Below are positions 1 to 24,006 of a stretch of 64,000 nt of DNA, one piece after another (within the stretch, counting starts at the first letter, position 1; each line of letters starts with the position of its first letter). This DNA comes from Acidaminococcus massiliensis (lineage in GTDB: Bacteria; Bacillota; Negativicutes; Acidaminococcales; Acidaminococcaceae). The stretch covers positions 510,318 to 574,317 of the forward strand of contig NZ_LT608315.1 in NCBI RefSeq assembly GCF_900095825.1. The letters run 5' to 3'. The translations under genes were made by a program, and so were the position numbers. The notes beneath the pieces were generated by a model, which was given only the letters and a program-made list of their open reading frames with translations, ran no database searches and was not told the origin of the DNA.

Positions 1-627
1 TGCCCAAACGAGGATATTGTACCCAAAAGTTCCCCAATACACCAGCTGCAGGAGGCAAATCGGCCACATGATTTTGGTCATATCAAAGACACCCATGCCG
101 GCTTCATAACCAGGGGTCCCCATCAACACTGCATTGGCTGCGACCTGAGAGACGGAACCTGTCAATGTCGCCCCACCGCCAATGATACAGGCAATCCCAG
201 CAGGCATAATGACCATCTTGGAACGGATTTTCCCTTTTGATCCGGCAGCAACGGCAGCAATGATGGGCATCCACATGGCGATACAGCCTGAATTGCTCAT
301 GAAGGCAGACATCAAGGTACAAATGGTTACAACCACAAGGATAAATACTTTTTCATTTTGGGCAATTTTATACTGGCAGATTTTGGCACCGATCCGCTGG
401 GCAATGCCTGTTTGGAACAGGGCATCGCCTACAATCATCATTCCGGCGACCATCACGATGGAACTCCCGCCAAAGCCGGAATAGATTTGTGAAAGTTTCA
501 TTTGCGGAATACAGATACCCATCGCCAGTGCACAACCGACGGCTGTGACACTCATAGGGAATTTCCCTACGAAGAAGAATACCATGGTAATCGCAGCAAT
601 GATAATTGCAACGGTACTGCTTGTCAT
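1..627 (-). CDS. SLC13/DASS-type anion permease, C-terminus outside window
   Basis: Translating the minus strand from an ATG at 625-627 gives an open frame of 209 codons that runs off the left edge with no stop. The product is a hydrophobic membrane protein with an N-terminal TM helix, a serine-rich re-entrant loop around SAFMSNSG (an SNT-like motif) and a glycine-rich GGGATLTGS stretch. These are hallmarks of the SLC13/DASS and ArsB/NhaD superfamily of sodium- or proton-coupled anion carriers. A GAGGGG ribosome site precedes the start. It is the last visible gene of the thiolase/dehydrogenase transcript, so I infer it imports the organic acid degraded by the neighbouring CoA enzymes. The substrate cannot be read from the sequence. 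Confidence 0.82.
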   Translation of the reverse strand, partial: MTSSTVAIIIAAITMVFFFVGKFPMSVTAVGCALAMGICIPQMKLSQIYSGFGGSSIVMVAGMMIVGDALFQTGIAQRIGAKICQYKIAQNEKVFILVVVTICTLMSAFMSNSGCIAMWMPIIAAVAAGSKGKIRSKMVIMPAGIACIIGGGATLTGSVSQVAANAVLMGTPGYEAGMGVFDMTKIMWPICLLQLVYWGTFGYNILVWA

Positions 628-684
628 TTTACTCACCCCTCGTTAAAATTTTCATGTATTTTGAATTTTTTGTATTTTATGTTT

Positions 685-724
685 AGCAGTTGTGTGGATA
701 ATCTGCCTTATCCACACAACTGCT
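685..724. terminator. 17-bp perfect hairpin containing two convergent DnaA boxes
   Basis: A perfect 17-bp inverted repeat with a 6-nt loop lies just after the dehydrogenase stop codon. Its arms contain TGTGGATAA (693-701) and TTATCCACA (708-716), each matching the consensus DnaA box exactly. No clear T-run follows on the minus strand, so intrinsic termination is uncertain. It could be an intra-operon processing or attenuation hairpin, or a DnaA-titrating site. Confidence 0.6.
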
Positions 725-729
725 GCTAT

Positions 730-1614
730 TCACTTTTTGCTGTAATCGTACCAGCCCTTACCAGTTTTACGGCCCAACTCCCCTTTCTTCACTTTTTCAA
801 TCACCAGCGGGTTCGGTGCATCTCTCTCGTCATGGCTCTCTGCATATCTATCTTTTCTCACCAGATAGTTGACATCAATTCCCGTCAGATCCATCAGACG
901 GAAAGGTCCCATGGGATAGTTCAGTCCATTTTCACAGGCAGTATCGATATCTTCCACAGAAGCAACGCCTTTTTGCAAAAGGTCAAGGGCCTCATAGGTA
1001 ACCGCTGCATTGATGCGGTTAGCCACAAACCCGGGGATTTCTTTCCGCAAGATGATAGGAGTTTTCCCCGTCTGGGCAGCAAAGGCTTTGGCTAGCTGAG
1101 CCGTTTCTTCACTAGTATGGGGTCCTTTGACCACTTCAACCAGCTTCATGACCAAAGCAGGATTGAAATAATGCATATTGCACAGTCTTTCCGGATTCTT
1201 GGTTACATCTGCCAATTTCGAACTAACGATGTTGGAAGAATTGGTAGCCAATAGAGCATCCGGCTTCGCAATCTGGCTTACATGGGCGAACAGATCTCGT
1301 TTGGCATCCAATTTTTCAATGATGGCTTCAATAATCACATCAGCTTCCGGCACATATTTATCCGTATCCAAAGATACCGTCCAGCGAGAAGCGATCGTAT
1401 CCGCTTCTTCCTGGGTGATCCTGCCTTTTTTTACACGGCCGGCCAGGTATTCCTTGGCCCAGGCAGTAGCACTTTCCACCGCTTTGGGAAAGCTGTCGCA
1501 CAAAGTGACGATGTACCCATACTTACGGCCATTCAATGCAGTGTTCATGGCAATCTGCCGTCCCATGGCACCGGCCCCAACTACAACCACCTTTTTAACA
1601 TCTTCTATTTTCAT
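730..1614 (-). CDS. hbd: 3-hydroxyacyl-CoA (3-hydroxybutyryl-CoA) dehydrogenase
   Basis: This soluble enzyme oxidises (S)-3-hydroxyacyl-CoA to 3-oxoacyl-CoA with NAD(P)+. The 294-residue protein has the N-terminal Rossmann motif GAGAMG at residues 13-18, the catalytic-region motif HYFNP and the C-terminal dimerisation domain, and matches the usual length of the family (about 280-295). The frame extends upstream, but the ATG at 1614 is chosen because GAGGAGGG lies just before it. It sits 26 bp downstream of the thiolase gene in the same transcript, matching their consecutive roles in beta-oxidation. Chain-length preference is not visible from sequence; C4 substrates are likely by similarity to Hbd proteins. 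Confidence 0.93.
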   Translation of the reverse strand: MKIEDVKKVVVVGAGAMGRQIAMNTALNGRKYGYIVTLCDSFPKAVESATAWAKEYLAGRVKKGRITQEEADTIASRWTVSLDTDKYVPEADVIIEAIIEKLDAKRDLFAHVSQIAKPDALLATNSSNIVSSKLADVTKNPERLCNMHYFNPALVMKLVEVVKGPHTSEETAQLAKAFAAQTGKTPIILRKEIPGFVANRINAAVTYEALDLLQKGVASVEDIDTACENGLNYPMGPFRLMDLTGIDVNYLVRKDRYAESHDERDAPNPLVIEKVKKGELGRKTGKGWYDYSKK

Positions 1615-1640
1615 ATCCAATCCCTCCTCTGGACTGTTTT

Positions 1641-2825
1641 TTAAACTCTTTCGATCATGGTTGCCATGGACTGGCCGCCGCCGATGCACAGCGTTGCGAG
1701 ACCGGTCTTGCCGCCCGTCCTGATCAAGTTATTCAGCAGAGTAACAATCAATCTGGCACCGGTGCATCCCAGCGGATGCCCCAGGGCAATGGCGCCTCCA
1801 TTGATATTCACCTTTGCAGGATCCAGTTTCAAATCTCTTACACAGGCTACCGCCTGAGAAGCAAAGGCTTCATTCAATTCCACCAGATCGATCTGATCCA
1901 CTGTCATATCCAGTTCTTTCAGCAGTTTCGTCGTAGAAATCACAGGACCATATCCCATGATTTCAGGATCCAGAGCAGCCCGTGCGATTCCCTTTATTTT
2001 AGCCAGAGGCTTCAGGCCGGTCTCTTTTACTTTGCTTTCACTCATCAAGACCAGAGCAGAAGCACCGTCATTCAAACCGCAGGCATTCCCAGCCGTTACA
2101 GTCCCTCCGGGTTTCACAATGGGTTTCAGTTTAGCCAAAATTTCCATTGTGGTTTTCGGTTTGATGAATTCATCTTCCGCAAAATCAAATTCCTGGTGTT
2201 TCAACTTCACATGGACAGGAACGATTTCATTTTTAAAGTACCCTTTTTCCCGTGCTTCCGTTGCCCGTTTTTGGCTTTCACAAGCAAAAGCATCCTGCAT
2301 TTCCCGGGTAATCCCGAAACGCTCTGCCACATTTTCTGCCGTCTGGGACATGCTCATCAGCCCATACAAAGAAGCCGGCTGGTCTGCCAATCCCCCTTCG
2401 ATATTGGAATCGACCAGTTTCATCGGGCCGTCGCCCCAACGGCCTTGGCGGATATACATAGGAGCCCGACTCATATTGTCCGTTCCGCCGGCAACTACGG
2501 TATCTGCCATCCCCAGCCAGATTTCTTCACATCCATTCAGCGTTGCCTGCATGGAAGATGCACACAGCCGGTTCACAGTATAGCCAGGGACGGTTTCCGG
2601 CATACCCGCTTCCAATGCCACATACCGTGCGATATTAGAAGCTTCGGAGCTTTGCCGAACCTCTCCCAGGATGACTTCATCCACCATATCTCCGGTAACA
2701 TGCGTCCGTTCCAGAACACTTTTCACAACCGTAGTGGCAAGAGTATGAGCAGGAATGCTTTTCAAAGATCCGCCATATTTCCCAATGGCAGTCCGGCAAC
2801 CGCCCATGATGTATACATTTTCCAT
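1641..2825 (-). CDS. Acetyl-CoA acetyltransferase-type thiolase
   Basis: This 394-residue protein cleaves or forms 3-oxoacyl-CoA using a Cys-His-Cys active site. Cys88 in NRLCAS is the acylated nucleophile. The GHPLGCTGA motif carries the catalytic His, and Cys380 in LCIGGG is the second cysteine. Length and motifs are those of degradative or biosynthetic thiolases (ThlA/PhaA/PaaJ group). It is the first gene of the leftward transcript, 54 bp downstream of a sigma-54 -24/-12 promoter. With the dehydrogenase and the divergent crotonase it completes a beta-oxidation set. The acyl chain released besides acetyl-CoA cannot be deduced. Confidence 0.94.
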   Translation of the reverse strand: MENVYIMGGCRTAIGKYGGSLKSIPAHTLATTVVKSVLERTHVTGDMVDEVILGEVRQSSEASNIARYVALEAGMPETVPGYTVNRLCASSMQATLNGCEEIWLGMADTVVAGGTDNMSRAPMYIRQGRWGDGPMKLVDSNIEGGLADQPASLYGLMSMSQTAENVAERFGITREMQDAFACESQKRATEAREKGYFKNEIVPVHVKLKHQEFDFAEDEFIKPKTTMEILAKLKPIVKPGGTVTAGNACGLNDGASALVLMSESKVKETGLKPLAKIKGIARAALDPEIMGYGPVISTTKLLKELDMTVDQIDLVELNEAFASQAVACVRDLKLDPAKVNINGGAIALGHPLGCTGARLIVTLLNNLIRTGGKTGLATLCIGGGQSMATMIERV

Positions 2826-2878
2826 AAAAACTCCTCCTTTATTCTCTTTTCAATAGAAATTCCTTTCAAAAAAGTATC

Positions 2879-2894
2879 TGCAAAAATTATGCCA
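2879..2894 (-). promoter_or_regulatory. Sigma-54 -24/-12 promoter for thiolase operon
   Basis: On the minus strand the sequence reads TTGGCATAATTTTTGCA, with GG and GC separated by exactly 10 nt. That is the invariant spacing of sigma-54 promoters, and the flanking TTGGCA and TTGCA also match consensus. It lies about 55 bp upstream of the thiolase start codon. Confidence 0.88.
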
Positions 2895-3014
2895 AAAAGA
2901 ATGAGTCTTTTGTCTCTTTCATGGAGTTTCTTTTTCTCACAAATTATATGGAATTTGAGGAATTCTTTCTGTCTGTTCGTTATTGATTTACCCATAAATG
3001 ATATATGTAAATTT

Positions 3015-3068
3015 TGCACTTTATCGTGCAATAAGTGCATATTTGTGCACTATATGCATTTATTGCAC
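3015..3068. promoter_or_regulatory. Dyad cluster, candidate activator-binding site (UAS)
   Basis: Overlapping inverted repeats are built from GTGCA/TGCAC. One pair is TGCAC-N6-GTGCA at 3015-3030. A second consists of 16-bp arms at 3026-3041 and 3053-3068 (GTGCAATAAGTGCATA against its near-complement), centred on a GTGCAC palindrome at 3045-3050. The cluster lies about 100-150 bp from both divergent sigma-54 promoters, the usual distance for an enhancer bound by a Fis-type HTH. The binding protein is inferred to be the activator encoded at 7808-9244. Confidence 0.68.
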
Positions 3069-3154
3069 TTGTTGTAATATTCTAATTTTTATTTCATTTT
3101 TCATTTTTATATTGTCCACTCCCTAAGCTTGTAAAAACAAACAGCTTTATTAAA

Positions 3155-3172
3155 TTGGCATGGATTTTGCAT
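3155..3172 (+). promoter_or_regulatory. Sigma-54 -24/-12 promoter for crotonase/dehydratase operon
   Basis: TTGGCATGGATTTTGCAT has GG at 3157-3158 and GC at 3169-3170, the strict 10-nt sigma-54 spacing with near-perfect flanks. The crotonase start codon is about 43 bp downstream of the -12 element. It mirrors the promoter at 2879-2894. Confidence 0.9.
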
Positions 3173-3214
3173 AATAAGAAAATAGACAAAGGAAAATTCT
3201 TCAAGGAGGCTGCT

Positions 3215-3997
3215 ATGGAACTGCATAATGTACTCTATGAAGTCAAAGAAAGCATATTGTATTTGACTTTGAATCGACCGGATGTGTATAACGCACTTTC
3301 TCCGGAAATGTGGAAAGATTTAAATACGGCGATTGACGCAGCACGTAACGATCCAGAAATCCGCGTCATTATCATTACAGGCGCTGGAGACAAAGCATTA
3401 GCCAGCGGTGCCGATATCAAAGAATTGCACAGCCGCTATTATATGGAACAGATGAAAGGAACGGCAACATTGGCCCTGCGGAATCTGGAAACCCTGTACA
3501 AGCCGGTCATCTGTGCCATCAACGGGTATGCATTGGGGGGCGGATGTGAATTGGCAGAAGCCTGTGACATCCGGATTGCAACGAAACGTTCTAAATTCGG
3601 TCAACCGGAAACAGGTCTTGGTATTATCCCCGGAGCCGGCGGGACCCAGCGTCTGGTACGGATTGTCGGCGTGGCAAAAGCCAAGGAACTGATCTTTACA
3701 GGAAAAATCATCCCAGCAGAAGAGGCTGAAAAAATAGGCCTGGTCAACCAGGTTACAGAAGATTCCCGTGAAGCTTTGATGGAAGCTGCAACAGCCATGG
3801 CAAAACAGATTGTGAAAAAAGGTCCTGTTGCTTTGAGCATGGCAAAGATTTCCATCACCTATGGCCAGGATTCCTCCATTGAAACTGGATTGATGATGGA
3901 AAGACTGGCACAGACCATTGCTCTGAGCACAGAAGACCGTAAAGAAGGAACAGGAGCTTTCATTGAAAAAAGGAAGCCGGTATTTACCGGTCGTTAA
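3215..3997 (+). CDS. Enoyl-CoA hydratase (crotonase family)
   Basis: This enzyme hydrates trans-2-enoyl-CoA to (S)-3-hydroxyacyl-CoA. The 260-residue protein has the oxyanion-hole stretch ASGADIKEL and GGGCELAE. Both catalytic glutamates of true hydratases are present, Glu112 (in CELAE) and Glu132 (in QPETGLG), which argues against an isomerase-only or dehalogenase member. The ATG at 3215 follows AAGGAGG; the longer frame starting at 3155 would overlap the sigma-54 promoter and is rejected. It is the first gene of the rightward operon, followed after 25 bp by a CoA-transferase. In this context it would hydrate the product of the 2-hydroxyacyl-CoA dehydratase. Confidence 0.93.
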   Translation: MELHNVLYEVKESILYLTLNRPDVYNALSPEMWKDLNTAIDAARNDPEIRVIIITGAGDKALASGADIKELHSRYYMEQMKGTATLALRNLETLYKPVICAINGYALGGGCELAEACDIRIATKRSKFGQPETGLGIIPGAGGTQRLVRIVGVAKAKELIFTGKIIPAEEAEKIGLVNQVTEDSREALMEAATAMAKQIVKKGPVALSMAKISITYGQDSSIETGLMMERLAQTIALSTEDRKEGTGAFIEKRKPVFTGR

Positions 3998-4022
3998 ATC
4001 ATATTAAAGGAGGATACAAACC

Positions 4023-5225
4023 ATGAAACCTTTGGAAGGAATTAAAGTCATCGAAATGTCCACCATGCTTGCCGGTCCTATGTGTGCCCGGATTCTGGCT
4101 GAATGGGGTGCAGATGTAATCAAGGTCGAAACGGTGCATGGTGACGCCTGGCGCAAACAGGGTGGAACGACCATGTCCCCTACCACTGACGTAGCCAACC
4201 CCAACTTCGATATGCAGAATATGAATAAACGATTTATTTCTCTTAATCTGAGGTCCCAAGCCGGTAAAGATGTCATGATGAAGCTGTTAAAAGATGCAGA
4301 TGTCCTTGTCACGAACTTCCGGGAATCTGCATTGGAAGGCATGGGTCTTGCTTATGATCAGTTAAAAGAAAAATTTCCTCGCCTCATCCATGCCGGTGTC
4401 CTTGGATATGGTGAAAAAGGTCCTGATGCCAATAAACCCGGTTATGACTACACTGCATATTTTGCCAGATCCGGCTTGATGATTGATCTGGCTCCCAAAG
4501 GTGCTGGTCCGTTGATTCCTGTGGGCGGCATCGGGGACCACAGTGTGTCCGTCGCTCTGGCAGGCGGGATTGCGGCCGCACTGTACGAACGGGAACGTAC
4601 TGGCAAAGGAGACAAAGTGGATGTATCTCTGCTGCAATGTGCCACTTTCATTCTTTCCACCGGTATCCTCAATGGTGTCAATGGACGTGAACTTCCCAGA
4701 GACCGTTATGACTGCGGCCATGCCTGCAGCAACAACTACCAAGGATCTGACGGTGAATGGTTCTATCTGGCAGTCATTGACTACCGCCGGTTTAAAGAAT
4801 TTGTCACTTTGATTGGTCTGCCTGAGCTGGCGGATGACCCTCGTTTCAATACCCAGCCGGCATATTATAAAAACAAAGCAGAACTGACCCGAATCTTTGA
4901 CAAAAAATTTGCGGAACATCCTGTGGCTTATTGGCACAAATTACTGGAAGAACATGATATGCCTCATGAAGTCCTGCGTCATTTCAAAGACGTTCCTGAC
5001 GATCCTCAAATCATTGCGAACAATTACGGATTCAAATACACTTATCCGGATGGCATCAAGACCTTCCTGACAAATGGTCCTGTCCATTTTGCATCCATAG
5101 ATCCTGCCAAGATCCCCTTCAAGCCTTCTCAGCATCTGGGCCACGATACCCGTCCCGTGTTGGAAGAGCTGGGATATTCTGATGAAGAAATCAATAACAT
5201 GTACACAAATGGTGAAATCAAATAA
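4023..5225 (+). CDS. Class III (CaiB/BaiF) CoA-transferase
   Basis: This 400-residue family III CoA-transferase moves CoA between carboxylic acids through an aspartyl-CoA anhydride. The predicted catalytic residue is Asp172 in GGIGDHSVS, and the N-terminal GPMCARILAEWGADVIKVE pattern is typical. Length matches HadA, FldA and CaiB (about 400). It lies between the crotonase and the dehydratase subunits with short gaps (25 and 17 bp). Family knowledge (HadA-HadBC, FldA-FldBC) makes it the enzyme that activates the 2-hydroxy acid, with the product acyl-CoA or acetyl-CoA as donor. The exact acid is unknown. Confidence 0.92.
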   Translation: MKPLEGIKVIEMSTMLAGPMCARILAEWGADVIKVETVHGDAWRKQGGTTMSPTTDVANPNFDMQNMNKRFISLNLRSQAGKDVMMKLLKDADVLVTNFRESALEGMGLAYDQLKEKFPRLIHAGVLGYGEKGPDANKPGYDYTAYFARSGLMIDLAPKGAGPLIPVGGIGDHSVSVALAGGIAAALYERERTGKGDKVDVSLLQCATFILSTGILNGVNGRELPRDRYDCGHACSNNYQGSDGEWFYLAVIDYRRFKEFVTLIGLPELADDPRFNTQPAYYKNKAELTRIFDKKFAEHPVAYWHKLLEEHDMPHEVLRHFKDVPDDPQIIANNYGFKYTYPDGIKTFLTNGPVHFASIDPAKIPFKPSQHLGHDTRPVLEELGYSDEEINNMYTNGEIK

Positions 5226-5242
5226 AGGAGGCTGATTTCATT

Positions 5243-6550
5243 ATGCCAGAAACAATGAATGCTGCTACTGCCACTGCAACGGGAGCCGCACCCAGCAAGC
5301 CAAAACGGCCGAAAGCCAAATCCATGCTGATGCTGGGTGAACAAACCAACGATTTGTATGAACGTGCCCGCAAAGCCAAAGAAGCAGGAGAAAAGGTTGG
5401 CTGGTCCGCTTCTATTTTCCCCCAGGAAATCGCGGAAACGCTGGGTCTGGTTGTCTTGTATCCTGAAAACCATTCGGCCGGGATTGCTGCCCGGCACCAG
5501 GCTGACCCCTTCCTCCAGGAATGCGAGGGTCCTCTGGGATATAATAATGACCTGTGTGCCTACGCAAAAGTCAATCTTGCCTATGCTTCCACACTGGAAG
5601 GCAAAAGCCACGTAGAACTGCCTGATGGAGGTAAGATGGTCAAACCAGATTTTCTTCTGTTGACCAATAACATCTGTACCCAGCTGACCAAATGGTATGA
5701 AAATCTGGCTTATTCCATGAAAATCCCTGTCTTTTTCATTGATACCTGTTATAACCCCTGGGACCATGTGACAGAAAGCCGAGTCCGTTACGTCCGTTCT
5801 CAAATCGATGCACTGATTGAAAATCTATGTAAATTCACTGGTAAGAAATGGGACGAAGAACGGTTCAAGAAAATCATGAAAATCAGCCAGCGAAACAGCT
5901 ATCTCTGGGAACGTGCCAACAATTTAATGGATCATATTCCTTCTCCCTTAAGCGGTTTTGAGCTGTTCAACTATATGTCCTGTATGGTATGTCACCGTGG
6001 CAGAGAATCTACCACAGCCATTCTGGAACAATTAAACAAAGAAATCGAGCAGCATTTAAAAGATGGGACTTCCACCTATCCTGTCAAAGAACAGTATCGT
6101 GTTTCCTGGGACGGCATTGCCTGCTGGCCTTATTTGAAGCACAACCTGCATACCCTGAAACAATACGGGATCAACATGGTAGCTTCCAGTTATGGGAAAG
6201 CCTGGGCCATTGAGTATGAAGACCTGGACGGGATGGCACGCGCTTACTGCTTTGCTTCCACCAACGGGGACAACGCCAGCACCATGATCCATCGCCGTCT
6301 GGAAGCTTTGAAGCGTTTTCATTGCGAAGGAACCATCTATCATGTGAACCGCAGCTGCAAAGTGATGGACTGTCAAATGATGGAAGTCCAGCGGCAGCTG
6401 GCTAAACTGGCCGGTGTTCCTTTCACTGCCTTTGATGGTGATCAGGCAGATTACCGGAACTACAGTGAAGCGCAATTCGAAACACGGATCCAGGGCCTGG
6501 TGGAAATCATGCAGGAAAATAAAGAAAAAAAGGCAGAGGAGGCTAAATGA
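5243..6550 (+). CDS. 2-hydroxyacyl-CoA dehydratase, alpha subunit
   Basis: This is one half of the oxygen-sensitive iron-sulfur dehydratase that removes water from (R)-2-hydroxyacyl-CoA by a ketyl-radical mechanism. The 435-residue protein resembles HgdA: GEKVGWSAS near residues 50-57, then three cysteines in conserved settings, Cys105 (NNDLC), Cys145 (TNNIC) and Cys372 (NRSCK), the likely cluster ligands. The extreme N-terminus is Ala/Thr-rich and low complexity. An AGGAGG site precedes the ATG. The beta subunit starts 1 nt after its stop. No activator ATPase (HgdC/HadI type) is encoded nearby, so activation must come from a gene elsewhere. Confidence 0.92.
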   Translation: MPETMNAATATATGAAPSKPKRPKAKSMLMLGEQTNDLYERARKAKEAGEKVGWSASIFPQEIAETLGLVVLYPENHSAGIAARHQADPFLQECEGPLGYNNDLCAYAKVNLAYASTLEGKSHVELPDGGKMVKPDFLLLTNNICTQLTKWYENLAYSMKIPVFFIDTCYNPWDHVTESRVRYVRSQIDALIENLCKFTGKKWDEERFKKIMKISQRNSYLWERANNLMDHIPSPLSGFELFNYMSCMVCHRGRESTTAILEQLNKEIEQHLKDGTSTYPVKEQYRVSWDGIACWPYLKHNLHTLKQYGINMVASSYGKAWAIEYEDLDGMARAYCFASTNGDNASTMIHRRLEALKRFHCEGTIYHVNRSCKVMDCQMMEVQRQLAKLAGVPFTAFDGDQADYRNYSEAQFETRIQGLVEIMQENKEKKAEEAK

Positions 6551-6551
6551 A

Positions 6552-7679
6552 ATGTCCGAATTACAGGAAAAACTAAAACAGCTGGAAACTGCCTGTACAC
6601 ATCCTCGTCAACAATTGGACGCCTATTTAAAGGCAGGGAAGAAGGTCATTGGCTGCTTCCCTGAATTCACACCCGAGGAACTGGTACACGCCAGTGGGAT
6701 CATCCCTATGGGATTATGGGGTGGAAACATCACCCCTTCGCTTGCGAAAAGTTATCTGCCTCCATTTGCCTGTCCGCTCATGCAGTCAAACATGGAATTT
6801 GGTCTAAAAGGAACCTATAAAGGGCTTTCGGCAGCCATTATCCCTACCCTGTGTGATACTCTCCGCTGCATGACCCAAGACTGGCGGTTCGGCGTGACTT
6901 CCATTCCCATGATTCCCATTGTCTACCCCCAAAACAGGACTGCCCCTGCTGCGGTTGATTATCTGGTAGATGAATTTGAGACCGTCCTGACCATCATTGC
7001 TACCGTTACCGGAGAAATGATGACGGAACAGGCTCTTTGTGACACGATTCAGATTTACAACGAACACAATGCTATAATGCGTGAATTTGCAAAGACTGCC
7101 AACAATCATCTGGATATCATTACACCAAAAGTCCGCCACTACGTGATGAAAAGCTCCTATTTCTTTGAAAAAGCAGAACATACGGCCATTGTAAAAGAAA
7201 TCATAGACGAGCTGAATCAACTGCCGGCTTATCAATATACCGGAAAACGGATTTTACTGACAGGAGTTACCTGTGAACCGGATGAAGTGCTGGATTTATT
7301 CAAAGAAAATGAAATGGCCGTAGTATATGATGACTTGATGCAGGAATCCCAGCAATTCCGCACGGATACTCCCCTGCACGGCGGTGGCGGCATCAAACGT
7401 CTGGCACTGCAATGGATGGATCGTTATGGCTGCAGCCTGCTCCATGAAGACGGCAAACCCAGAGGAGCCATGCTGATCAAGATGTGTAAAGAAAACCAGG
7501 TCGACGGAGTCATCAACTGTATGATGAAGTTCTGTGATCCAGAAGAATATGATCAGCCTTATTTGGAGAAAGATCTGCAGGGAGCCGGCATTCCCGTTAC
7601 CGATCTTTCCATTGATCAGCAGAAAGACAGTATCGAACAGCTTCGTACCAGGATTGAAGCCTTCAGAGAAATGCTCTAG
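6552..7679 (+). CDS. 2-hydroxyacyl-CoA dehydratase, beta subunit
   Basis: This 375-residue partner of the alpha subunit is HgdB/FldC-like. It has the PEELVHASGIIPMGLWGG signature near residues 41-58, Cys74 (FACPL), Cys101 (TLCDTLR), the VYPQNR motif and C-terminal MMKFCDPEEY (Cys328). The start at 6552 is preferred because GAGGAGG ends about 10 nt before it and the gene is translationally coupled to the alpha stop; the frame extends upstream inside the alpha gene and that part is rejected. The subunits usually carry one [4Fe-4S] cluster each or share them. It is the last gene of the operon before a strong terminator. Confidence 0.92.
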   Translation: MSELQEKLKQLETACTHPRQQLDAYLKAGKKVIGCFPEFTPEELVHASGIIPMGLWGGNITPSLAKSYLPPFACPLMQSNMEFGLKGTYKGLSAAIIPTLCDTLRCMTQDWRFGVTSIPMIPIVYPQNRTAPAAVDYLVDEFETVLTIIATVTGEMMTEQALCDTIQIYNEHNAIMREFAKTANNHLDIITPKVRHYVMKSSYFFEKAEHTAIVKEIIDELNQLPAYQYTGKRILLTGVTCEPDEVLDLFKENEMAVVYDDLMQESQQFRTDTPLHGGGGIKRLALQWMDRYGCSLLHEDGKPRGAMLIKMCKENQVDGVINCMMKFCDPEEYDQPYLEKDLQGAGIPVTDLSIDQQKDSIEQLRTRIEAFREML

Positions 7680-7694
7680 TTATTTCAATAGTGA

Positions 7695-7733
7695 GAGGGT
7701 GTTGCCCGTTTTGTGCAGCACCCTCCTTTTTAT
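7695..7733 (+). terminator. Intrinsic terminator of the dehydratase operon
   Basis: GAGGGTGTTGC (7695-7705) pairs with GCAGCACCCTC (7715-7725) with one G-T pair, followed by CTTTTTATTT. It belongs to the stem family found repeatedly in this window. Confidence 0.85.
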
Positions 7734-7746
7734 TTCTTTCTCAGCT

Positions 7747-7775
7747 TATACAGTGTGCTTTTTTTATGCTATAAT
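7747..7775 (+). promoter_or_regulatory. Sigma-70-type promoter of the activator gene
   Basis: TATAAT at 7770-7775 is a consensus -10 element. TATACA lies 17 nt upstream as a weak -35. The activator would therefore be made independently of the sigma-54 promoters it controls. Confidence 0.55.
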
Positions 7776-7807
7776 GATAACAGTCACTTTGATGGAGGCC
7801 TCCAATA

Positions 7808-9244
7808 ATGTTCAATCCATTTGAAGAATTACAAAAGCACCTGTCAATTGTTGATATCCTTGATAATATCGATGCCGGAATCGTAATCTATGATGCCAGG
7901 GGAAACTTTGTCTTTATGAACACCATGATGGTCAATTGGCGGAATATTCCCCGTGATGAATATCTGAAGATGAACGTCCATGATTTTACGAATGTCTTAG
8001 ATGTCTGCGTCTTTGATCTGGTATTGCAAAACAAAAAGAGGGTTTCCCGACTGCAAAATTATCGCGACTATCAAAATGTAAGCAGCGAAATCCGATTGCG
8101 GATGGTTACAGGCACACCGATCTTTGATGACTCCGGAAATATCAGATATGTGGTCATGCTGATGCAGGATATCCAGGATTTTGAACACCAGTACCATACT
8201 TTGCTCAAAAGCCACGCCATCCTCAATAACGGGTTATCAGGAGGACGCGAAAGCAAAACTGGAATGGTGGCAAAAAGCAAAGAAATCCTTCGGCTATTAT
8301 CAGTCACCGATAATATCTCCGTGCTTGACTCCACCGTATTGCTTTATGGAGAGTCAGGATGTGGGAAGGAAGTTTTTGCCCATTATATCCATGAACATTC
8401 AAACCGAAAAGATGCTCCCATGATTACGGTAAACTGTGCAGCCTTTCCAAAAGATTTGATTGAAGCAGAATTGTTTGGCTATGAAAAGGGCAGCTTCACA
8501 GGAGCCAATAAAGAAGGGAAAAAGGGACTGGCCGAGGCGGCCAATCATGGGACCCTGTTTTTAGACGAAATCAATTCATTACCCCTTTCCGTCCAAGGAA
8601 AAGTGCTGCGCATGATTGAAGAAAAACGGATCCGTCCCATCGGATCGGTTCAGTCCAAACAAGTTGATTTTCGGCTCCTTGCGGCCACCAATCGAGATCT
8701 TCGAAAAATGGTCGAACTGGGAACATTCCGGGAAGATCTATACTATCGCCTGAATGTAATTCCCCTCATGATTCCGCCGCTGCGCAACCACCGTGATGAT
8801 ATTATCCCCTTATGTTTGCATTTCTTGTATCATTTCTGTCAAAAATATAATTTGCGAAAATCTTTTTCAAAAAAGGTCTTAAATGAACTTTACCAATACA
8901 ATTGGCCTGGGAATATCCGGGAATTAAAAAATTTTGTAGAAAGGATTGTCGTCATGACGCCTTCCTCAACAAAAGAAATATTGGAAATTCCCCACGGTTT
9001 ATTGGGCGATGTTTTTTCGTCCTTGCCGTCATCTGATTCCAACCATGAACCAATGACTCCACCTCCAGTGACCATGCCGACCTATTTCCCGCGAAAATTG
9101 GGCAGACAGGAAATTCTCGATGCTCTTTCCATCTGTGGGGGAAACCGTGAAAAATCAGCGGCCTATCTTGGCATTTCCCGTCGCCAATTACAATATAAAA
9201 TAAAGCTCTATCATCTCTCAAACAGATGTGTTTATAATGAATAA
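7808..9244 (+). CDS. Sigma-54-dependent activator with PAS sensor, AAA+ and Fis HTH
   Basis: This 478-residue enhancer-binding protein has three parts: an N-terminal PAS-like sensor (about residues 15-125), a central AAA+ ATPase and a C-terminal Fis-type helix-turn-helix (about 445-475, GGNREKSAAYLGISRRQLQ). The ATPase has Walker A GESGCGKE near residue 181, GSFTGA near 228 for contact with sigma-54, and Walker B LFLDEI near 251. GGAGG lies about 9 nt before the ATG. It is encoded directly after the dehydratase operon, and both divergent promoters at 2.9-3.2 kb are sigma-54 type, so it is very probably their activator, triggered by a small ligand or redox state sensed by PAS. There is no receiver domain, hence no partner kinase is expected. 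Confidence 0.93.
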   Translation: MFNPFEELQKHLSIVDILDNIDAGIVIYDARGNFVFMNTMMVNWRNIPRDEYLKMNVHDFTNVLDVCVFDLVLQNKKRVSRLQNYRDYQNVSSEIRLRMVTGTPIFDDSGNIRYVVMLMQDIQDFEHQYHTLLKSHAILNNGLSGGRESKTGMVAKSKEILRLLSVTDNISVLDSTVLLYGESGCGKEVFAHYIHEHSNRKDAPMITVNCAAFPKDLIEAELFGYEKGSFTGANKEGKKGLAEAANHGTLFLDEINSLPLSVQGKVLRMIEEKRIRPIGSVQSKQVDFRLLAATNRDLRKMVELGTFREDLYYRLNVIPLMIPPLRNHRDDIIPLCLHFLYHFCQKYNLRKSFSKKVLNELYQYNWPGNIRELKNFVERIVVMTPSSTKEILEIPHGLLGDVFSSLPSSDSNHEPMTPPPVTMPTYFPRKLGRQEILDALSICGGNREKSAAYLGISRRQLQYKIKLYHLSNRCVYNE

Positions 9245-9249
9245 TAAAA

Positions 9250-9288
9250 ATACCCTGCAGGGACTCTCCAATAGTCCCTGCAGGGTAT
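9250..9288. terminator. Bidirectional terminator between convergent genes
   Basis: Perfect 16-bp arms (ATACCCTGCAGGGACT and its complement) with a 7-nt loop are flanked by an A-run on the left and a T-run on the right. It can end both the activator gene and the converging AbgT gene. Confidence 0.92.
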
Positions 9289-9299
9289 TTTTATTATTG

Positions 9300-10886
9300 T
9301 TAAAGCAAAGCAGAATAGCCAGGTCCCACCGGTAAGCCTGCCATCACCCAAACTACCAGGAATGCAATCCAGACAACGCCTGTAATCAGCGTATAAGGAA
9401 GCATGTAAGCCATGACGGTACCAACTCTGGCCCGCGGTTCATAAATTTGAGCATATCCCAAAATAGCTGCCAGATAAGGAAATACCGGTGCAATATTATT
9501 AGTCAATCCATCTCCCATTCGATATGCTACCTGGATAGCCGCCGGATTGATTCCAGCAATCATCATCATGGGAACAAACATCGTAGAAATCAATGCCCAT
9601 TTCCCAGATGCTCCCGTCATAAACAAATTGATGAAGCTTGCCATCACAACGAAGCCAGCCAATAAAAGTGCTTTTGGCAGCCCTAGATGAACCAGGAAAT
9701 CACCGCCCCAGATTGCTATAATGGTTGCGATGTTACTTTTTCCAAAAACTGCAATGAATTGAGAAGCAAAGAGACAGACCATGATAAATCCAGAAAGACC
9801 CTTTATTTCTTCAGTGATCATAGGTATGGTGTCCCCAAATTTCTTAATGGTGCCCACTGTCTTTCCGTATACATAACCGGGCAAGAAGAACATGAACATA
9901 ATCAGAGTCGGGATGCATTTGAACAATTTCCCCGTCGTTATGCTTCCTCCTTTAGGAGCCGCAAAAGGCATCCCCGGCAGGCACATAAGGGCTACTGCAG
10001 CAAAGAACAGAATCAGCATCAGTAAAGCACGTTTCATCCCCGTTTTTTGAAGGTCACTCAATGCTTCATTTTCGATATCTTCCGTTTCATTTGATTGTCC
10101 CATTCCCATCCCGGTCTTTGCCAGCCGAGGTTCTATCACGTAGATGCTCACAGCAGCGCAAACAATCGTAACAACAAAAGTTGAAGCAAACAAATAATAC
10201 CAGCCCATGGCAGCATTGGCGACAAAATTCGCATCGACAATGACTGCTGCAGCCTGCGTGAGCCCTGCCAGCGAAGCGTCAGCTGACCCAATGAGCAGAT
10301 TTGCCCCAAACCCCACAGAAACACTGGCATATCCTAAAAACAAGCCGGCGAGTGGATTGCGATGGACACTTTTAAAAAGCATGGCCACCAGGGGCGGAAA
10401 AATGAGGAAAGCGGCATCCCCTACCAGGTTGGCATTGACTCCAATAAAAGATACTATCAGCGCAACACTCCAGATTCCCTCACAGTGTCCTGTAAGACGC
10501 AGACCTGCTTCCAACAGCCCAGTTCTGCTTGCAATGGCAAGTCCTACCGTGCATACGGGAACCGTCAGCAAGGGAGCAAAATTCATCCATCTTTTATTGA
10601 TATTCTGCAGAAAGTCTGCCGTATTCGCTGACGTGAACAGATTGATTACAGAAACGGTCTTCCCAGTAACGGGATTCACCGCAGAAACCCCCATGGTGCT
10701 CATAATAAATGAAGCAATATAGGTAATAACGAACAATCCCATAAACATAAATGCAGGACCAGGGATTTTATTGCCAAGTTTTTCCACCAGTCCATAGAAT
10801 CCCGTCATCTGGCACTCTTCGTTTTTCACATCGATCACCGCAGTGCCCATACTTTGATTTGTTTTAATGGTTCCTGTTGCCGCCAT
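9300..10886 (-). CDS. AbgT-family aminobenzoyl-glutamate/peptide carrier (copy 1)
   Basis: This integral membrane carrier of about 528 residues has around 11-13 hydrophobic segments. It is recognised as AbgT by the N-terminal VEKLGNKIPGPAFMFMGLF-type start, the conserved VNPVTGKTV loop, GLAIASRTGL and the C-terminal GDGLTNNIAPVFPYLA motif. AbgT proteins import p-aminobenzoyl-glutamate or export antifolates, using an ion gradient. The ATG at 10886 fits GAGGGGAG at 9-nt spacing better than the ATG three codons upstream. It follows an M20 amidohydrolase by 55 bp in one operon, the AbgA/AbgB-AbgT arrangement, so import plus hydrolysis of an N-acyl amino acid is inferred. Confidence 0.9.
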   Translation of the reverse strand: MAATGTIKTNQSMGTAVIDVKNEECQMTGFYGLVEKLGNKIPGPAFMFMGLFVITYIASFIMSTMGVSAVNPVTGKTVSVINLFTSANTADFLQNINKRWMNFAPLLTVPVCTVGLAIASRTGLLEAGLRLTGHCEGIWSVALIVSFIGVNANLVGDAAFLIFPPLVAMLFKSVHRNPLAGLFLGYASVSVGFGANLLIGSADASLAGLTQAAAVIVDANFVANAAMGWYYLFASTFVVTIVCAAVSIYVIEPRLAKTGMGMGQSNETEDIENEALSDLQKTGMKRALLMLILFFAAVALMCLPGMPFAAPKGGSITTGKLFKCIPTLIMFMFFLPGYVYGKTVGTIKKFGDTIPMITEEIKGLSGFIMVCLFASQFIAVFGKSNIATIIAIWGGDFLVHLGLPKALLLAGFVVMASFINLFMTGASGKWALISTMFVPMMMIAGINPAAIQVAYRMGDGLTNNIAPVFPYLAAILGYAQIYEPRARVGTVMAYMLPYTLITGVVWIAFLVVWVMAGLPVGPGYSALL

Positions 10887-10941
10887 TTCAGCCATCTCCC
10901 CTCAAAATCAAACCAAGATCCTTCACCCTTACAGTACTTTT

Positions 10942-12114
10942 TTACTGGGCAAGATATTGTTGAACAACTGCAATATATGCAGCCATACCTATAACCATGC
11001 TGTTCTCATCGATATTAAAATTACAGGAATGCAGCGATTCCTTCATTTCCTCATTTCCTGTTCCCAGGAAGAAGAATACAGAAGGTTTCTCCTGGGCATA
11101 ATAAGCAAAAGAATCACACCCCATAAATGCATGAGGCAATCTGCCCACATTTTCCATCCCGATAACTTCTCCTGCTGCCTGATTAAAAAACTCTGTCAAC
11201 TGCGGATTGGAATACAATGCGGGATTGCTTTTCTGCCGTTCCAGTTCATAGCTTCCACCAAATGCAGCAGTGATTCCTGCTAAGAGTCCCTTGATTCTCT
11301 GGTTTAAGAATTCTCTCGTCTCCCCATTCAGGCTCCGTATAATTCCATTGATCACGACTTCATCACAGACTATATTTCTCGCCGTACCTCCCTGTATTGT
11401 GCCAAAGGTAATGATAGCTGACTGAAAAGCATCTTTTTCTCTCGCCATCATCGTTTGGACTGCAAGGATGAAATGACAGGCCATCGTCATCGCATCAATT
11501 CCCAGATGTGGCATGGCGCCATGGGCAGACTTCCCCATGATTTTAATGATCAGTCGGTCAGAAGCAGCCTCCATTTCTCCTGGACACGTATATACAGTCC
11601 CTACCGGAAATCGATTTTCGCAATGCATTCCCACCACTGCATCCGCATCGTCCAGTACCCCGTTCTTTATCATAAACTGGGCACCGCCAATATCTTCTTC
11701 TGCCGGTTCAAACATGAGTTTGACATTGCCCTGCAATTCTGACTGATGTTTGACCAATATAGCGGCCGTTTCCATGAGAGTGGCACAATGACAGTCATGT
11801 CCACACGCATGCATGACACCGGGAACTGTAGATTTATAAGGGATATCATTTTTCTCTGTAATATGCAGTGCATCCATATCCGCCCGCAAAGCAATGGTCC
11901 TCCTTTTTTGGGCACCAGGAATGACAGCCACCACACTGGGCAAATCTCCGCCGTACGTTATCTGTACCTGCAGACCTAAATCCTCTAAATATTTCTTGAT
12001 GTAAGCTGCTGTTTGAAATTCATGCTTACTCGGTTCAGGATGCATATGAAAGTAACGCCGAAGTTGAATGGCTTGCTGCAAATGTGCTTTTGCTTCTCCT
12101 AGACAATCAATCAT
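10942..12114 (-). CDS. M20D-family amidohydrolase (N-acyl amino acid / AbgA-like)
   Basis: This cytosolic metal-dependent amidase of 390 residues has the N-terminal RRYFHMHPEPS motif, metal-binding ACGHDCH, and EPAEED carrying the catalytic acid. The lid/dimerisation domain includes SAHGAMPHLGIDA. The layout and length are those of hippurate hydrolase, IAA-amino acid hydrolase and AbgA enzymes. TTGGAGGC precedes the ATG. Co-transcription with an AbgT carrier suggests it cleaves an imported N-acyl or aminobenzoyl amino acid, releasing glutamate or another fermentable amino acid. It is the promoter-proximal gene and has a GTTC...CGAAC dyad about 50 bp upstream. Confidence 0.92.
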   Translation of the reverse strand: MIDCLGEAKAHLQQAIQLRRYFHMHPEPSKHEFQTAAYIKKYLEDLGLQVQITYGGDLPSVVAVIPGAQKRRTIALRADMDALHITEKNDIPYKSTVPGVMHACGHDCHCATLMETAAILVKHQSELQGNVKLMFEPAEEDIGGAQFMIKNGVLDDADAVVGMHCENRFPVGTVYTCPGEMEAASDRLIIKIMGKSAHGAMPHLGIDAMTMACHFILAVQTMMAREKDAFQSAIITFGTIQGGTARNIVCDEVVINGIIRSLNGETREFLNQRIKGLLAGITAAFGGSYELERQKSNPALYSNPQLTEFFNQAAGEVIGMENVGRLPHAFMGCDSFAYYAQEKPSVFFFLGTGNEEMKESLHSCNFNIDENSMVIGMAAYIAVVQQYLAQ

Positions 12115-12160
12115 ATTTGCGCCTCCAAATACGAATTATTTTTTATTTATGCATTTAATA

Positions 12161-12179
12161 GTTCTTGTTAATATCGAAC
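12161..12179. promoter_or_regulatory. 19-bp dyad, candidate operator upstream of M20/AbgT operon
   Basis: GTTCTTGTTAATATCGAAC has the same length and ends as the dyad at 15666-15684 in front of the second AbgT operon. The surrounding 220-bp intergenic region (12115-12334) is AT-rich and otherwise shows no gene or clear terminator. Confidence 0.5.
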
Positions 12180-12334
12180 TTTATTAAAGTATAGTACAAT
12201 AATAATCGTTTTTAATCGTGTTCACGCTTTTTTCACATTTCCTTGTGTTGATTCATGAAAGTTGTAACCATTTTTATAAATCCGAATCAAATCACCCCTC
12301 ATAGACCAAATCATGACAGTAATTGTGACTCACC

Positions 12335-13927
12335 TCAATAAAATGAATCACCTTTACCATGTCTCAATAATTTACCCTCCATAACACCTTGAAAAACGTC
12401 ATCTTTCACCACACATTTTCCTCCTATCCAAACATATACAATTCCCTGTCCTCTCTTTTTCGAATCAGTAAACGTTGCCAAATCTTTTATAGTTTCTGGA
12501 TTGAACAAAACCAAATCGGCATCCATCCCGATCCGGATCAGTCCTTTTGTCTGCAGGCCATAAACCTGAGCAGGCAGAGATGTCATTTTCCGAACGGCAT
12601 CTTCCCATTTAAGGATTTTCTTCTCTCGGACATACTCGCCAAGGACCCGGAGGAACGTCCCAAAAGCACGGGGATGGACTCCTGCGCACCCTTTATAATA
12701 CAATCCATCAGAGCCGATCATGGTCCTGGGATAACGCATGATCCGTTCCACATCCTCATCCTGCATACAGAAATAAATTCCATTGGTTGTCAAATGATCA
12801 TCGCATAGGACATCCATAACCAGCTCACAGGGATCTTTTTGAAGGTCACGGGCCACGTCAAGGACCATCTTTCCCGTATATTCAGGGTGTGCAGGAGAAG
12901 CACCAAACATCGTTGTCCCGAATCGCTGTTCCGGGTTCATACCAGCCAGGATTGCATTCTGCATCATGCTTCTCTGTTCTGGATCTGACATCAGAGAAAT
13001 CAGCTGATTTTCCCCCAAACTATGCAAATGCTGCGGAATCCGGGATTTCAGGCCAGTCGAAGAAGCTGTGTAGGGATATTGATCACAGTACACATTGCAT
13101 CCCCTTTGATTGGCCTGTTCTATCAGGGAAAGGGTCTTTTGAGATTTTCCCCAATTAGGCTGATTAATGGCTTTATGATGCGAAATGACCAGCTTACAAT
13201 GGCTGGATCTGGCGACCTGGATCATTTTCTGATCCGCTTCCAGCAAATGGTTTCCCTCATCCCTGACATGAGCGGCTATGACACCATCGTATTTGGCTGC
13301 TACAGACGATAAATGGACCATCTCTTCAGTTGATGCATAAGCACCTGGAGGATACTGCAGCCCATAAGAAATCCCCAACGCTCCCGCCTCCATACATTGG
13401 TGCAGCGTCTCTTCCATTTTTTGTAATTCCACCGAGGTAGGTTCTCTGTCATCCATGCCCATGACAAAAGCCCGCAGTGTCCCATGGCCTACCATCAGGA
13501 CATAATTATTCCCTGCCGGGATATGTTCCAGATGATCCAGGTATTGTTGATAATCAAACCGGCATCCGGCCGATTGCAGAAAATCACAATCCACTACTGT
13601 GGCAGCGATCTCCAGGGCACTATCCAGATGAGTTTCAGAAAAAGGAGCTGCCGATATGCCGCACATTCCCTCAATCTGGGTAGTGACACCTTGCTCCACT
13701 TCCTGAAAAAAAGAAGGATCCAATTCAAACATCATGTCCCCGTGACTGTGTGAATCAATAAATCCAGGGCATAAGGTCAGTCCATCCGCATCGCAAGTTT
13801 CTCTGGCAAGGCCAAGGTCATTGCCTATGCCAACGATTTTCCCATCCTGTACCGCCACATCTCCCCAAAAAGAAGGACTTCCCGTGCCATCAATGATCCG
13901 TGCACGCTTGATCAAAATATCGTACAT
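12335..13927 (-). CDS. N-acyl-D-amino-acid deacylase (D-aminoacylase)
   Basis: This amidohydrolase-superfamily enzyme of 530 residues hydrolyses N-acyl-D-amino acids or N-acyl-D-glutamate. It has the HxH metal motif in GFIDSHSHGD, a metal-bridging Cys in the EGMCG stretch typical of D-aminoacylases, HVRDEGNH and VISHHKA. The C-terminal AFGTFLRVLGEYVRE and GMDADLVLFNPE segments are also standard. The ATG at 13927 gives the usual MYDILI start; a TTG eight codons upstream is possible. It lies downstream of the second AbgT carrier beyond a terminator-like hairpin, so read-through expression is likely. Together they would import and deacylate N-acyl-D-amino acids, for example from cell-wall turnover or processed food peptides. 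Confidence 0.92.
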   Translation of the reverse strand: MYDILIKRARIIDGTGSPSFWGDVAVQDGKIVGIGNDLGLARETCDADGLTLCPGFIDSHSHGDMMFELDPSFFQEVEQGVTTQIEGMCGISAAPFSETHLDSALEIAATVVDCDFLQSAGCRFDYQQYLDHLEHIPAGNNYVLMVGHGTLRAFVMGMDDREPTSVELQKMEETLHQCMEAGALGISYGLQYPPGAYASTEEMVHLSSVAAKYDGVIAAHVRDEGNHLLEADQKMIQVARSSHCKLVISHHKAINQPNWGKSQKTLSLIEQANQRGCNVYCDQYPYTASSTGLKSRIPQHLHSLGENQLISLMSDPEQRSMMQNAILAGMNPEQRFGTTMFGASPAHPEYTGKMVLDVARDLQKDPCELVMDVLCDDHLTTNGIYFCMQDEDVERIMRYPRTMIGSDGLYYKGCAGVHPRAFGTFLRVLGEYVREKKILKWEDAVRKMTSLPAQVYGLQTKGLIRIGMDADLVLFNPETIKDLATFTDSKKRGQGIVYVWIGGKCVVKDDVFQGVMEGKLLRHGKGDSFY

Positions 13928-13976
13928 TCTGTTCCGCCGCCTTTCCTCCAACCAACAAGGTTCTCACTAATGAAAA

Positions 13977-14019
13977 ATACAGGAATGGAACCTCCGATCC
14001 CGGACTTCCACTCCTGTAT
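13977..14019 (-). terminator. Attenuating hairpin between AbgT copy 2 and D-aminoacylase
   Basis: Arms ATACAGGAATGGAA (13977-13990) and TTCCACTCCTGTAT (14006-14019) match at 13 of 14 positions. On the minus strand they are followed by TTTTT. Placed just after the AbgT stop, it would lower expression of the downstream deacylase. Confidence 0.75.
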
Positions 14020-14024
14020 GCAGA

Positions 14025-15566: not shown

Positions 15567-15665
15567 AAATACCCCTTCCCTAATTTGTCTTTCGTCTAAC
15601 CTATACATACCAAAACATAATTATTTAGTTTTTGTATGTATAATATTATCATTTTATATTATAAC

Positions 15666-18329: not shown

Positions 18330-18370
18330 AGATTCTCCCCCCATCCAGATCTAATCTTAAAGAAGAGCCG

Positions 18371-20349: not shown

Positions 20350-20366
20350 GGCATGCATCCCCTTCT

Positions 20367-21233: not shown

Positions 21234-21234
21234 A

Positions 21235-22188: not shown

Positions 22189-22218
22189 GAGCCGCACCTC
22201 GTTTAACCTTATACGTTC

Positions 22219-23751: not shown

Positions 23752-24006
23752 TCAAAGCACCCCTCATCAAAATATGGTTCATATTCAGCTAAATCCATGA
23801 ACAAGTTGTTTTAAAATAATTACATATTAATAAATTATTTGCTTTTATGTCCCTCTCTTTGTAATTTTATTTTGAACGTTTTTAATTATAAATCCTTATT
23901 TATTCATTTATATATTTTTTGTTTCGTGTCACATTAAATTCACATCTTCTTTTTTAAAGTGTATCTTTTTTTATATATCCTATCTCCGACAGGAAACATC
24001 GCAAAA
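23752..24006. other. AT-rich intergenic region upstream of importer operon
   Basis: This stretch has no ORF and no RNA gene I can recognise. It must contain the importer promoter. A half match (23863-23877) to the GTTC...CGAAC dyad of the AbgT operons is present. Confidence 0.5.

Follow-up and report, generated by a model that had tools for sequence, protein, structure and literature searches.

A sigma-54-associated 2-hydroxyacyl-CoA dehydratase locus of Acidaminococcus massiliensis and its possible part in an oxidative amino-acid fermentation

When a radical 2-hydroxyacyl-CoA dehydratase is encoded together with a crotonase, a 3-hydroxyacyl-CoA dehydrogenase and a thiolase, is its enoyl-CoA product oxidised or reduced, and from which compound does the 2-hydroxy acid come? 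This question is raised by a locus at positions 1-9244 of a 64,000-nt stretch of Acidaminococcus massiliensis contig NZ_LT608315.1 (510,318-574,317; hereafter the window), which belongs to a genome of 2.67 Mb. Genome coordinates are given as C4:n, and labels of the form Lnnn each denote one fetched locus stretch. The source genome is Acidaminococcus, and the alpha subunit of its glutaconyl-CoA decarboxylase matches structure 1pix, which we take to be that from A. fermentans, across all 587 residues with ~97% identity (counted on the alignment). In our reading, considered fairly probable, the locus belongs to a 14-gene sigma-54 regulon for amino-acid fermentation, in which a 2-hydroxy acid would be an intermediate that undergoes radical dehydration and then beta-oxidation. 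The order and direction of the reactions, the co-expression of the genes, the use of the activator HgdC and the passage of a single substrate through all the enzymes are what we infer from sequence comparison.

All genes that the initial annotation had named were found with intact frames, the permease gene continuing beyond the window edge. The genes of the permease, 3-hydroxyacyl-CoA dehydrogenase (HADH) and thiolase (THL) lie on the minus strand, followed on the plus strand by those of the crotonase/enoyl-CoA hydratase (ECH), a class III CoA-transferase, HadB, HadC and a sigma-54 activator. By family and catalytic motif, the lower half of beta-oxidation appears to be represented by HADH (730..1614, minus; PF02737 and PF00725), with the H.FNP motif in 16/16 clade members examined, by the thiolase (1641..2825, minus; TIGR01930, 468 bits at a cut-off of 240.55), with NEAFA and GHP.G.TG in 17/17, and by the 260-amino-acid crotonase (3215..3997, plus; PF00378, E=3.7e-68), with GGGCEL in 19/19 and FGQPE in 17/19. 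FGQPE is missing from L014 and L016, and C.GGG from L027. The CoA-transferase (4023..5225, plus; PF02515, E=4.9e-90) has the succinate-hydroxymethylglutarate CoA-transferase 9br6 as its best solved relative. The HadB-type alpha subunit of the dehydratase (5243..6550, plus) and the HadC-type beta subunit (6552..7679, plus, from the gene model; a start at 6543 is also possible) both exceed the PF06050 cut-off of 28.4 (220.3 and 274.7 bits), and match 3o3m_A (E=1.1e-113) and 3o3m_B (E=2.4e-112), respectively. The HadB motifs DLCAY, NNIC and NR.CK, whose cysteines are presumably the cluster ligands of the alpha subunit, align with 3o3m_A and are kept in 22/22 clade members. Further patterns were badly chosen and carry no weight (HadC CP[LF] 1/20 and LCD.L.C 6/20; two CoA-transferase patterns, 16/20 and 1/20).

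The direction of the pathway was then evaluated on related loci. A genome scan gave 109 relatives, of which the best 80 were kept. Among these, 21 orthologous loci (L008-L027 and L035; several on short contigs) encode a HadB 78-84% identical to that of the window, while the nearest clade outside, here called the sister clade, comprises 8 loci with 57-67% identity, two of them under 9 kb. Neither an enoyl-CoA reductase nor an acyl-CoA dehydrogenase with Etf, the mark of the reductive Had, Fld and Lcd loci, was found beside the window dehydratase. By tblastn at 1e-20, acyl-CoA dehydrogenase and Etf gave no match in our own 83 kb (the window plus 19 kb upstream) or in the 21 orthologous loci (several short), which bears out the absence of acyl-CoA dehydrogenase and EtfAB noted in the initial annotation. 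In contrast, an acyl-CoA dehydrogenase is present in 6/8 sister loci, and only 1/8 (L032) has the beta-oxidation set. Because of this difference (0/21 vs. 6/8), the oxidative direction proposed earlier gains support, and oxidative use of the enoyl-CoA appears to be the better reading and more than a guess. When 81 sequences were placed on a tree, the window clade, made up of 22 rows, had a support of 100/100 and contained zero acyl-CoA dehydrogenase rows; the label "acyl-CoA dehydrogenase without beta-oxidation set" required 5 changes vs. 9.6 in shuffles, with 0/500 as low. Among 50 more distant rows (HadB 40-46%), 26 lie near two or more of HADH, ECH and thiolase, 5 of these 26 also near an acyl-CoA dehydrogenase, and 4 of the 50 have an acyl-CoA dehydrogenase alone. 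Judged by such neighbourhoods, HadBC beside beta-oxidation genes is not unique to the window clade.

Could the dehydratase and the beta-oxidation enzymes instead act on different substrates and share regulation only, with the HadBC product passing to acyl-CoA dehydrogenases from other loci for reduction? Three matches to the acyl-CoA dehydrogenase family at other places in the genome would allow it. However, THL, HADH and ECH are kept with the HadBC clade across genera, and the distribution of acyl-CoA dehydrogenase between the two clades also speaks against it, so that this alternative is improbable. The window set looks dedicated, because the genome has a separate group of thiolase, acyl-CoA dehydrogenase, HADH and crotonase-like genes (a butyrate-type operon, near C4:2249-2253 kb) and a separate gct-gcdA-hgdCAB locus (L007; some names by eye).

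The lack of a dehydratase activator, taken earlier as a further sign of the oxidative route, holds for the window locus but not for the genome, as an HgdC-type activator gene (PF01869) lies at C4:920521-921267 and a 1436-amino-acid frame holds two more activator-family matches. An activator is required whichever way the route runs, and is encoded inside 7/21 orthologous loci as well as elsewhere in this genome; its absence from the locus therefore says nothing on direction, and this argument was rejected. The HgdA-type subunit of this genome shares 43% identity with the window HadB (best tblastn segment). An HgdAB-type substrate was rejected, with neither decarboxylase nor Gct in the locus and the own HgdA distant.

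The co-occurrence and order of the genes, which the annotation had proposed to check across genomes, recur in the 21 orthologous loci, which makes them more than a chance arrangement. Based on codon-scored gene calls, which miss fragments at stretch ends, HadC was found in 20 of them, CoA-transferase in 19, ECH in 18, thiolase in 16, HADH in 15 the sigma-54 activator in 11, the racemase-like protein in 4, the DASS permease in 3 and LarA in 2. An aminotransferase was found in 10 (two from a different cluster), a D-2-hydroxyacid dehydrogenase in 9 and both in 8; when only stretches of 14 kb or more are counted, the aminotransferase is present in 9/14. In L018, L020, L021, L025 and L035 both genes belong to the same run as THL-HADH or ECH-HadBC, and so they do in L012, there at the stretch edge. 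In L018, L021 and L035 they come immediately after thiolase and HADH, while in L020 and L025 a single run comprises two D-2-hydroxyacid dehydrogenases, the aminotransferase, FAD-oxidoreductase-like and transporter-like genes, ECH, CoA-transferase, HadBC, thiolase and HADH. Two proteins without a Pfam match are conserved in the Oscillibacter/Flintibacter gene runs: a transporter-like one of 469 amino acids (L026 14259-15668) and one of 206 amino acids (L020 4325-4945).

Regulation by sigma-54 was assessed from the activator, the promoter-like sites and rpoN. The activator (7808..9244, plus) combines PAS (PF00989/PF13426), AAA+ sigma-54 interaction (PF00158) and Fis-type helix-turn-helix (PF02954) domains. 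One promoter-like site, TGGCATAATTTTTGCA (2879..2894, minus), lies 54 nt before the thiolase start, and another, TGGCATGGATTTTGCA (3156..3171, plus), upstream of the crotonase start. The latter start is most likely the ATG at 3215 behind AAGGAGG, since the TTG at 3155 of the open reading frame list overlaps the sigma-54-like site and 260 amino acids is the length of several orthologs, although our gene caller placed it at 3167 instead. A third exact match of TGGCAYN5TTGCW, which we take as the sigma-54 promoter consensus, was found 32 nt before the NhaC gene of an adjoining operon upstream of the window, and the three sites are near-identical. Exact matches number 13 in the whole genome, vs. 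2 for the reversed control. Scans that tolerated 2 mismatches and had C as base six gave no overall enrichment over shuffles (32 vs. 38.6 expected in the window; 16 vs. 12.1 in L006), so it is the exact, well-placed sites that carry the promoter argument. The rpoN gene (sigma-54 DNA-binding domain) was located at window 41802-42275, minus strand; a frame labelled by eye as transposase-like lies near it in L115. With the AAA+ activator, the -24/-12-type sites before ECH, THL and NhaC, and rpoN, the notion of one sigma-54 regulon is supported.

A putative enhancer, composed of TTTGCACTTTAT and clustered TGCAC/GTGCA words, was found at 3013..3068 in the 389-bp THL/ECH intergenic region. TGCAC/GTGCA occurs there 6 times vs. 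0.29 expected, a count reached by 0/5000 mononucleotide shuffles, and 3 times vs. 0.15 expected upstream of NhaC (16/5000 shuffles), while no such word stands in the 250 bp before eight of the ten other exact sigma-54 sites, and one stands before each of the remaining two. The 12-mer TTTGCACTTTAT has 3 exact copies in the 2.67-Mb genome, 1 between THL and ECH and 2, inverted, upstream of NhaC. In 17/22 loci (own plus 21 orthologous ones), one or more sigma-54-like sites with no more than 1 mismatch are suitably positioned ahead of a member of the set or of the leading gene of its run. The divergent THL/ECH arrangement is present in 13 loci (own plus 12), and sites of this kind point toward both genes in 13/13; these account for 26 of the 44 that the 13 divergent stretches contain (raw counts). 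The TGCAC/GTGCA counts of 9/13 divergent intergenic regions were reached by at most 8/2000 shuffles.

The divergent unit described earlier stands, but it is larger than claimed, since the adjoining NhaC operon (C4:501858-509406, minus) has the same promoter and enhancer motifs. Its 6 genes encode an NhaC-type transporter, an alanine-racemase-like protein, an enolase-superfamily protein, a class I/II aminotransferase, a D-2-hydroxyacid dehydrogenase and a second enolase-superfamily protein. The racemase-like protein passes the general alr model TIGR00492, and the aminotransferase and racemase searches gave no specific substrate; the nearest solved relatives of the enolase-superfamily protein (2ox4, 2o56, 2gl5) are named "putative mandelate racemase" or "putative dehydratase". 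The predicted 14-gene regulon accordingly has 6 genes outside the window and one, the permease gene, straddling its edge, and these genes would be co-expressed. Because the aminotransferase, D-2-hydroxyacid dehydrogenase and racemase-like genes share the regulon motifs, the 2-hydroxy acid is probably made in the cell from an amino acid, and the initial suggestion of an external 2-hydroxy acid as the fuel was not supported.

The following observations weigh against the reading of an amino-acid-fermenting sigma-54 regulon. No well-placed sigma-54-like site was found in L010, L013, L020, L024 and L025 (5/22 scanned); three of these five are short, and the sigma-54 activator gene is likewise missing from L020 and L025. 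The TGCAC/GTGCA enrichment is weak in L027 and L035 (71 and 84 of 2000 shuffles) and not seen in L023 and L026 (979 and 2000 of 2000). The length of the 12-mer is by itself not significant, as 67/1000 shuffled pairs share a word at least as long and 1/10 other sigma-54 upstream regions also has a 12-mer in common with the THL/ECH region; its value as evidence therefore lies in uniqueness, placement and conservation. The aminotransferase was not seen in the sequence covered for 11/21 loci, including 5/14 of those of at least 14 kb (L008, L014, L016, L017 and L022). Moreover, LarA was found in L015 (above the cut-off) and L019 (by similarity), and sugar-acid-dehydratase-like genes in several loci, namely GD_AH in L015 (Pfam), L014 and L019 (clustering), IlvD in L012, and the enolase superfamily in our own regulon, to whose two members the proposed route gives no role. 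Because of these LarA and dehydratase-like genes, a hydroxy or dihydroxy acid could be the entry compound.

In that case the fuel would be a 2-hydroxy acid or 2,3-dihydroxy acid from outside the cell, and the NhaC operon would offer alternative ways of reaching the same (R)-2-hydroxy acid, through a dihydroxy-acid dehydratase, reduction of a 2-oxo acid, or racemases. The LarA-type 2-hydroxyacid racemase, the enolase-superfamily, GD_AH and IlvD genes in or beside the loci, and the acid-type DASS or TRAP transporters are all consistent with such a supply; LarA, however, occurs in just 2/21 loci, compared with the aminotransferase in 10/21 and in our own regulon, and we regard an external acid as unlikely.

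In the proposed amino-acid fermentation, the substrate would be imported by NhaC- and/or DASS-type carriers, its D and L forms would be interconverted by the alanine-racemase-like protein, and transamination would yield a 2-oxo acid, which the D-2-hydroxyacid dehydrogenase would reduce to the (R)-2-hydroxy acid. The class III CoA-transferase would move CoA from an acyl-CoA product onto this acid, and HadBC, primed by the HgdC of the genome, would dehydrate it by a radical mechanism to a 2-enoyl-CoA. Hydration at C3, oxidation and thiolysis would finally release acetyl-CoA and an acyl-CoA two carbons shorter. The steps of the route are reversible in principle, so acetyl-CoA and an acyl-CoA might be condensed, reduced and dehydrated to an enoyl-CoA, whose hydration at C2 would lead to a 2-hydroxy acid or amino acid; but a sigma-54-type set with transporters, a racemase-like protein and a CoA-transferase looks catabolic, no biosynthetic need is evident, and such a reversal is very improbable.

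The thiolases were compared for hints on the chain length. On PRK05656, an acetyl-CoA acetyltransferase model, the window thiolase reaches 398 bits, and on PcaF 416, vs. 590 and 426 for the thiolase of the butyrate-type operon, and the orthologous thiolases of L015, L017 and L020 score like that of the window. These scores suggest a substrate other than acetoacetyl-CoA, and do no more than suggest it because all five thiolases fall below every equivalog cut-off listed. The C4 acid 2-hydroxybutyrate, an example given in the initial annotation, is on this hint less likely, and a chain longer than C4 perhaps fits the thiolase better. Candidates are perhaps a dicarboxylic chain of the 2-aminoadipate type, leading to succinyl-CoA, or a gamma-branched chain of the leucine type, leading to isobutyryl-CoA; the class III CoA-transferase, nearest to the succinate-using 9br6, gives a hint of a dicarboxylate.

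How far does this locus differ from known systems? Structure 3o3m, which we take to be the Clostridioides difficile (R)-2-hydroxyisocaproyl-CoA dehydratase HadBC, aligns with both window subunits near full length, shares the alpha cysteine motifs, and is likewise encoded next to a CoA-transferase gene. However, the window subunits (468.4 and 470.2 bits) stay below the NCBIfam equivalog cut-offs of 750 / 700 for this enzyme, and the locus lacks an activator gene and an enoyl-CoA reductase while having a crotonase, HADH and thiolase in addition. The absence of an enoyl-CoA reductase also sets the proposed route apart from leucine or phenylalanine reduction, and its lack of a decarboxylation step from glutamate fermentation. 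In glutamate fermentation, the dehydration product is decarboxylated to crotonyl-CoA, which then passes through hydratase, dehydrogenase and thiolase. This 2-hydroxyglutarate pathway (gct, gcdA, hgdCAB; L007 in the source genome) shares with the proposed route the sequence from 2-oxo acid to (R)-2-hydroxy acid, CoA ester and radical dehydration, whereas the window locus has no Gct-type transferase, no glutaconyl-CoA decarboxylase and its own thiolase set. The novelty first claimed was therefore overstated, the glutamate route already meeting these three enzymes after its decarboxylation. C. propionicum makes crotonyl-CoA too, as the consulted part of PMC8473912 describes its lactyl-CoA dehydratase route with (R)-2-hydroxybutyryl-CoA as a precursor, alongside the 2-hydroxyglutarate pathway. 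That route likewise dehydrates an amino-acid-derived 2-hydroxyacyl-CoA to an enoyl-CoA, but the same part of PMC8473912 describes no dedicated crotonase/HADH/thiolase operon, and the window thiolase does not look acetyl-CoA acetyltransferase-like. In the portions seen of two other papers, 2-hydroxyacyl-CoA dehydratases are placed in the reductive branch of Stickland fermentation (PMC11574389), and a subunit of this family is among the proteins identified in Syntrophomonas wolfei (PMC3582634). No description of the window gene set was found in the parts seen of the open-access literature searched, including PMC8473912, PMC11574389, PMC11770544 and PMC3582634, which is not proof of absence. Overall, the novelty is moderate; the direction is supported by comparative evidence, and the substrate shifts from an external 2-hydroxy acid to what is probably an amino acid, degraded via its 2-hydroxy acid.

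More distant HadBC loci such as L066 also combine HadBC with HADH-ECH-THL and a sigma-54 activator. They differ from the window locus in several ways: HadB is 40-46% identical, the CoA-transferase belongs to another family (by a test for L066, by clustering for the rest), and some have acyl-CoA dehydrogenase and Etf-like genes. In L066 the CoA-transferase is of the butyryl-CoA:acetate type (below the cut-off), and the locus also has an iron alcohol dehydrogenase, an aminotransferase of class III and a gene resembling D-2-hydroxyacid dehydrogenases. A distant lineage with this gene set and the other CoA-transferase family was seen in L066, L075, L047, L052 and L059.

The distribution of the locus was examined within its own genus and family. 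A HadB of the window type (E <= 1e-120) was found in 1/9 genomes of the genus, the source genome included, and in 2/59 genomes of the family, the second being only 46% identical. Between about C4:499,000 and window 16,000 the G+C content amounts to 43-47%, and from there on to window 24,000 to 46-49%; the other blocks to either side of this A+T-rich stretch have 50-57%. We infer a lateral acquisition that left the local activator behind and made the locus reliant on HgdC. A wider proposal would be a carbon-conserving amino-acid fermentation, in which an alpha-hydroxyl replaces the alpha-amino group and is removed by a ketyl-radical dehydratase, after which the chain undergoes full beta-oxidation without decarboxylation or enoyl reduction. 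Such a fermentation would have originated two or more times among HadBC lineages whose CoA-transferases are unrelated (class III in the window clade, the butyryl-CoA:acetate type in L066-like loci), and would have moved laterally into one Acidaminococcus species; this is tentative, with somewhat less than an even chance of being right.

The window clade spans Oscillospiraceae, Lachnospiraceae and related groups, and the gene set occurs in many gut bacteria. If the oxidative amino-acid route is true, gut radical 2-hydroxyacyl-CoA dehydratases would not be solely electron-accepting (reductive) enzymes, as a whole clade would work oxidatively and supply acetyl-CoA. A further amino-acid fermentation route with acetate and a shortened acid as products would be added, HadBC paralogs could be annotated by their neighbours, and a defined enzyme set with an inducible promoter would be at hand for finding the substrate.

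The remaining features concern the boundaries and surroundings of the locus. Only the C-terminal part of the DASS/CitMHS-type permease lies in the window (1..627, minus; PF03600, E=1.4e-19, above the cut-off; TIGR00785 dass, E=6.6e-10, below it), and according to the gene model the whole gene occupies C4:509613-510944 (about 443 amino acids) and HADH most likely starts at 1614, not 1689. At the other end, the unit closes with a terminator-like hairpin of 20 pairs (9246..9292), which was detected on either strand and separates the activator from a convergent AbgT gene. Behind it, window 9300-15608 encodes two AbgT-family transporters, an M20 amidohydrolase and a second amidohydrolase, D-aminoacylase-like by eye, whose nearest NCBIfam model is PRK09061 (below the cut-off); M20 and AbgT homologs also occur near L015 and L019. 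The A+T-rich stretch continues through window 16797-25674, where Pfam matches identify a family 5 solute-binding protein and also a gamma-glutamyltranspeptidase. The frames that separate these two look ABC-transporter-like by eye, and the group suggests peptide scavenging. Genes of CitF (citrate lyase alpha-subunit) flank the region, at L006 5094-7487 (~C4:496 kb) and window 25862-27265 (~C4:536 kb). Among the sister HadBC loci, L030, L031, L033 and L034 pair the acyl-CoA dehydrogenase with genes for a LarA-like/DUF362 protein and a TRAP transporter, and L030, L031 and L033 also encode an enolase-superfamily protein of the same cluster as that of our own regulon.

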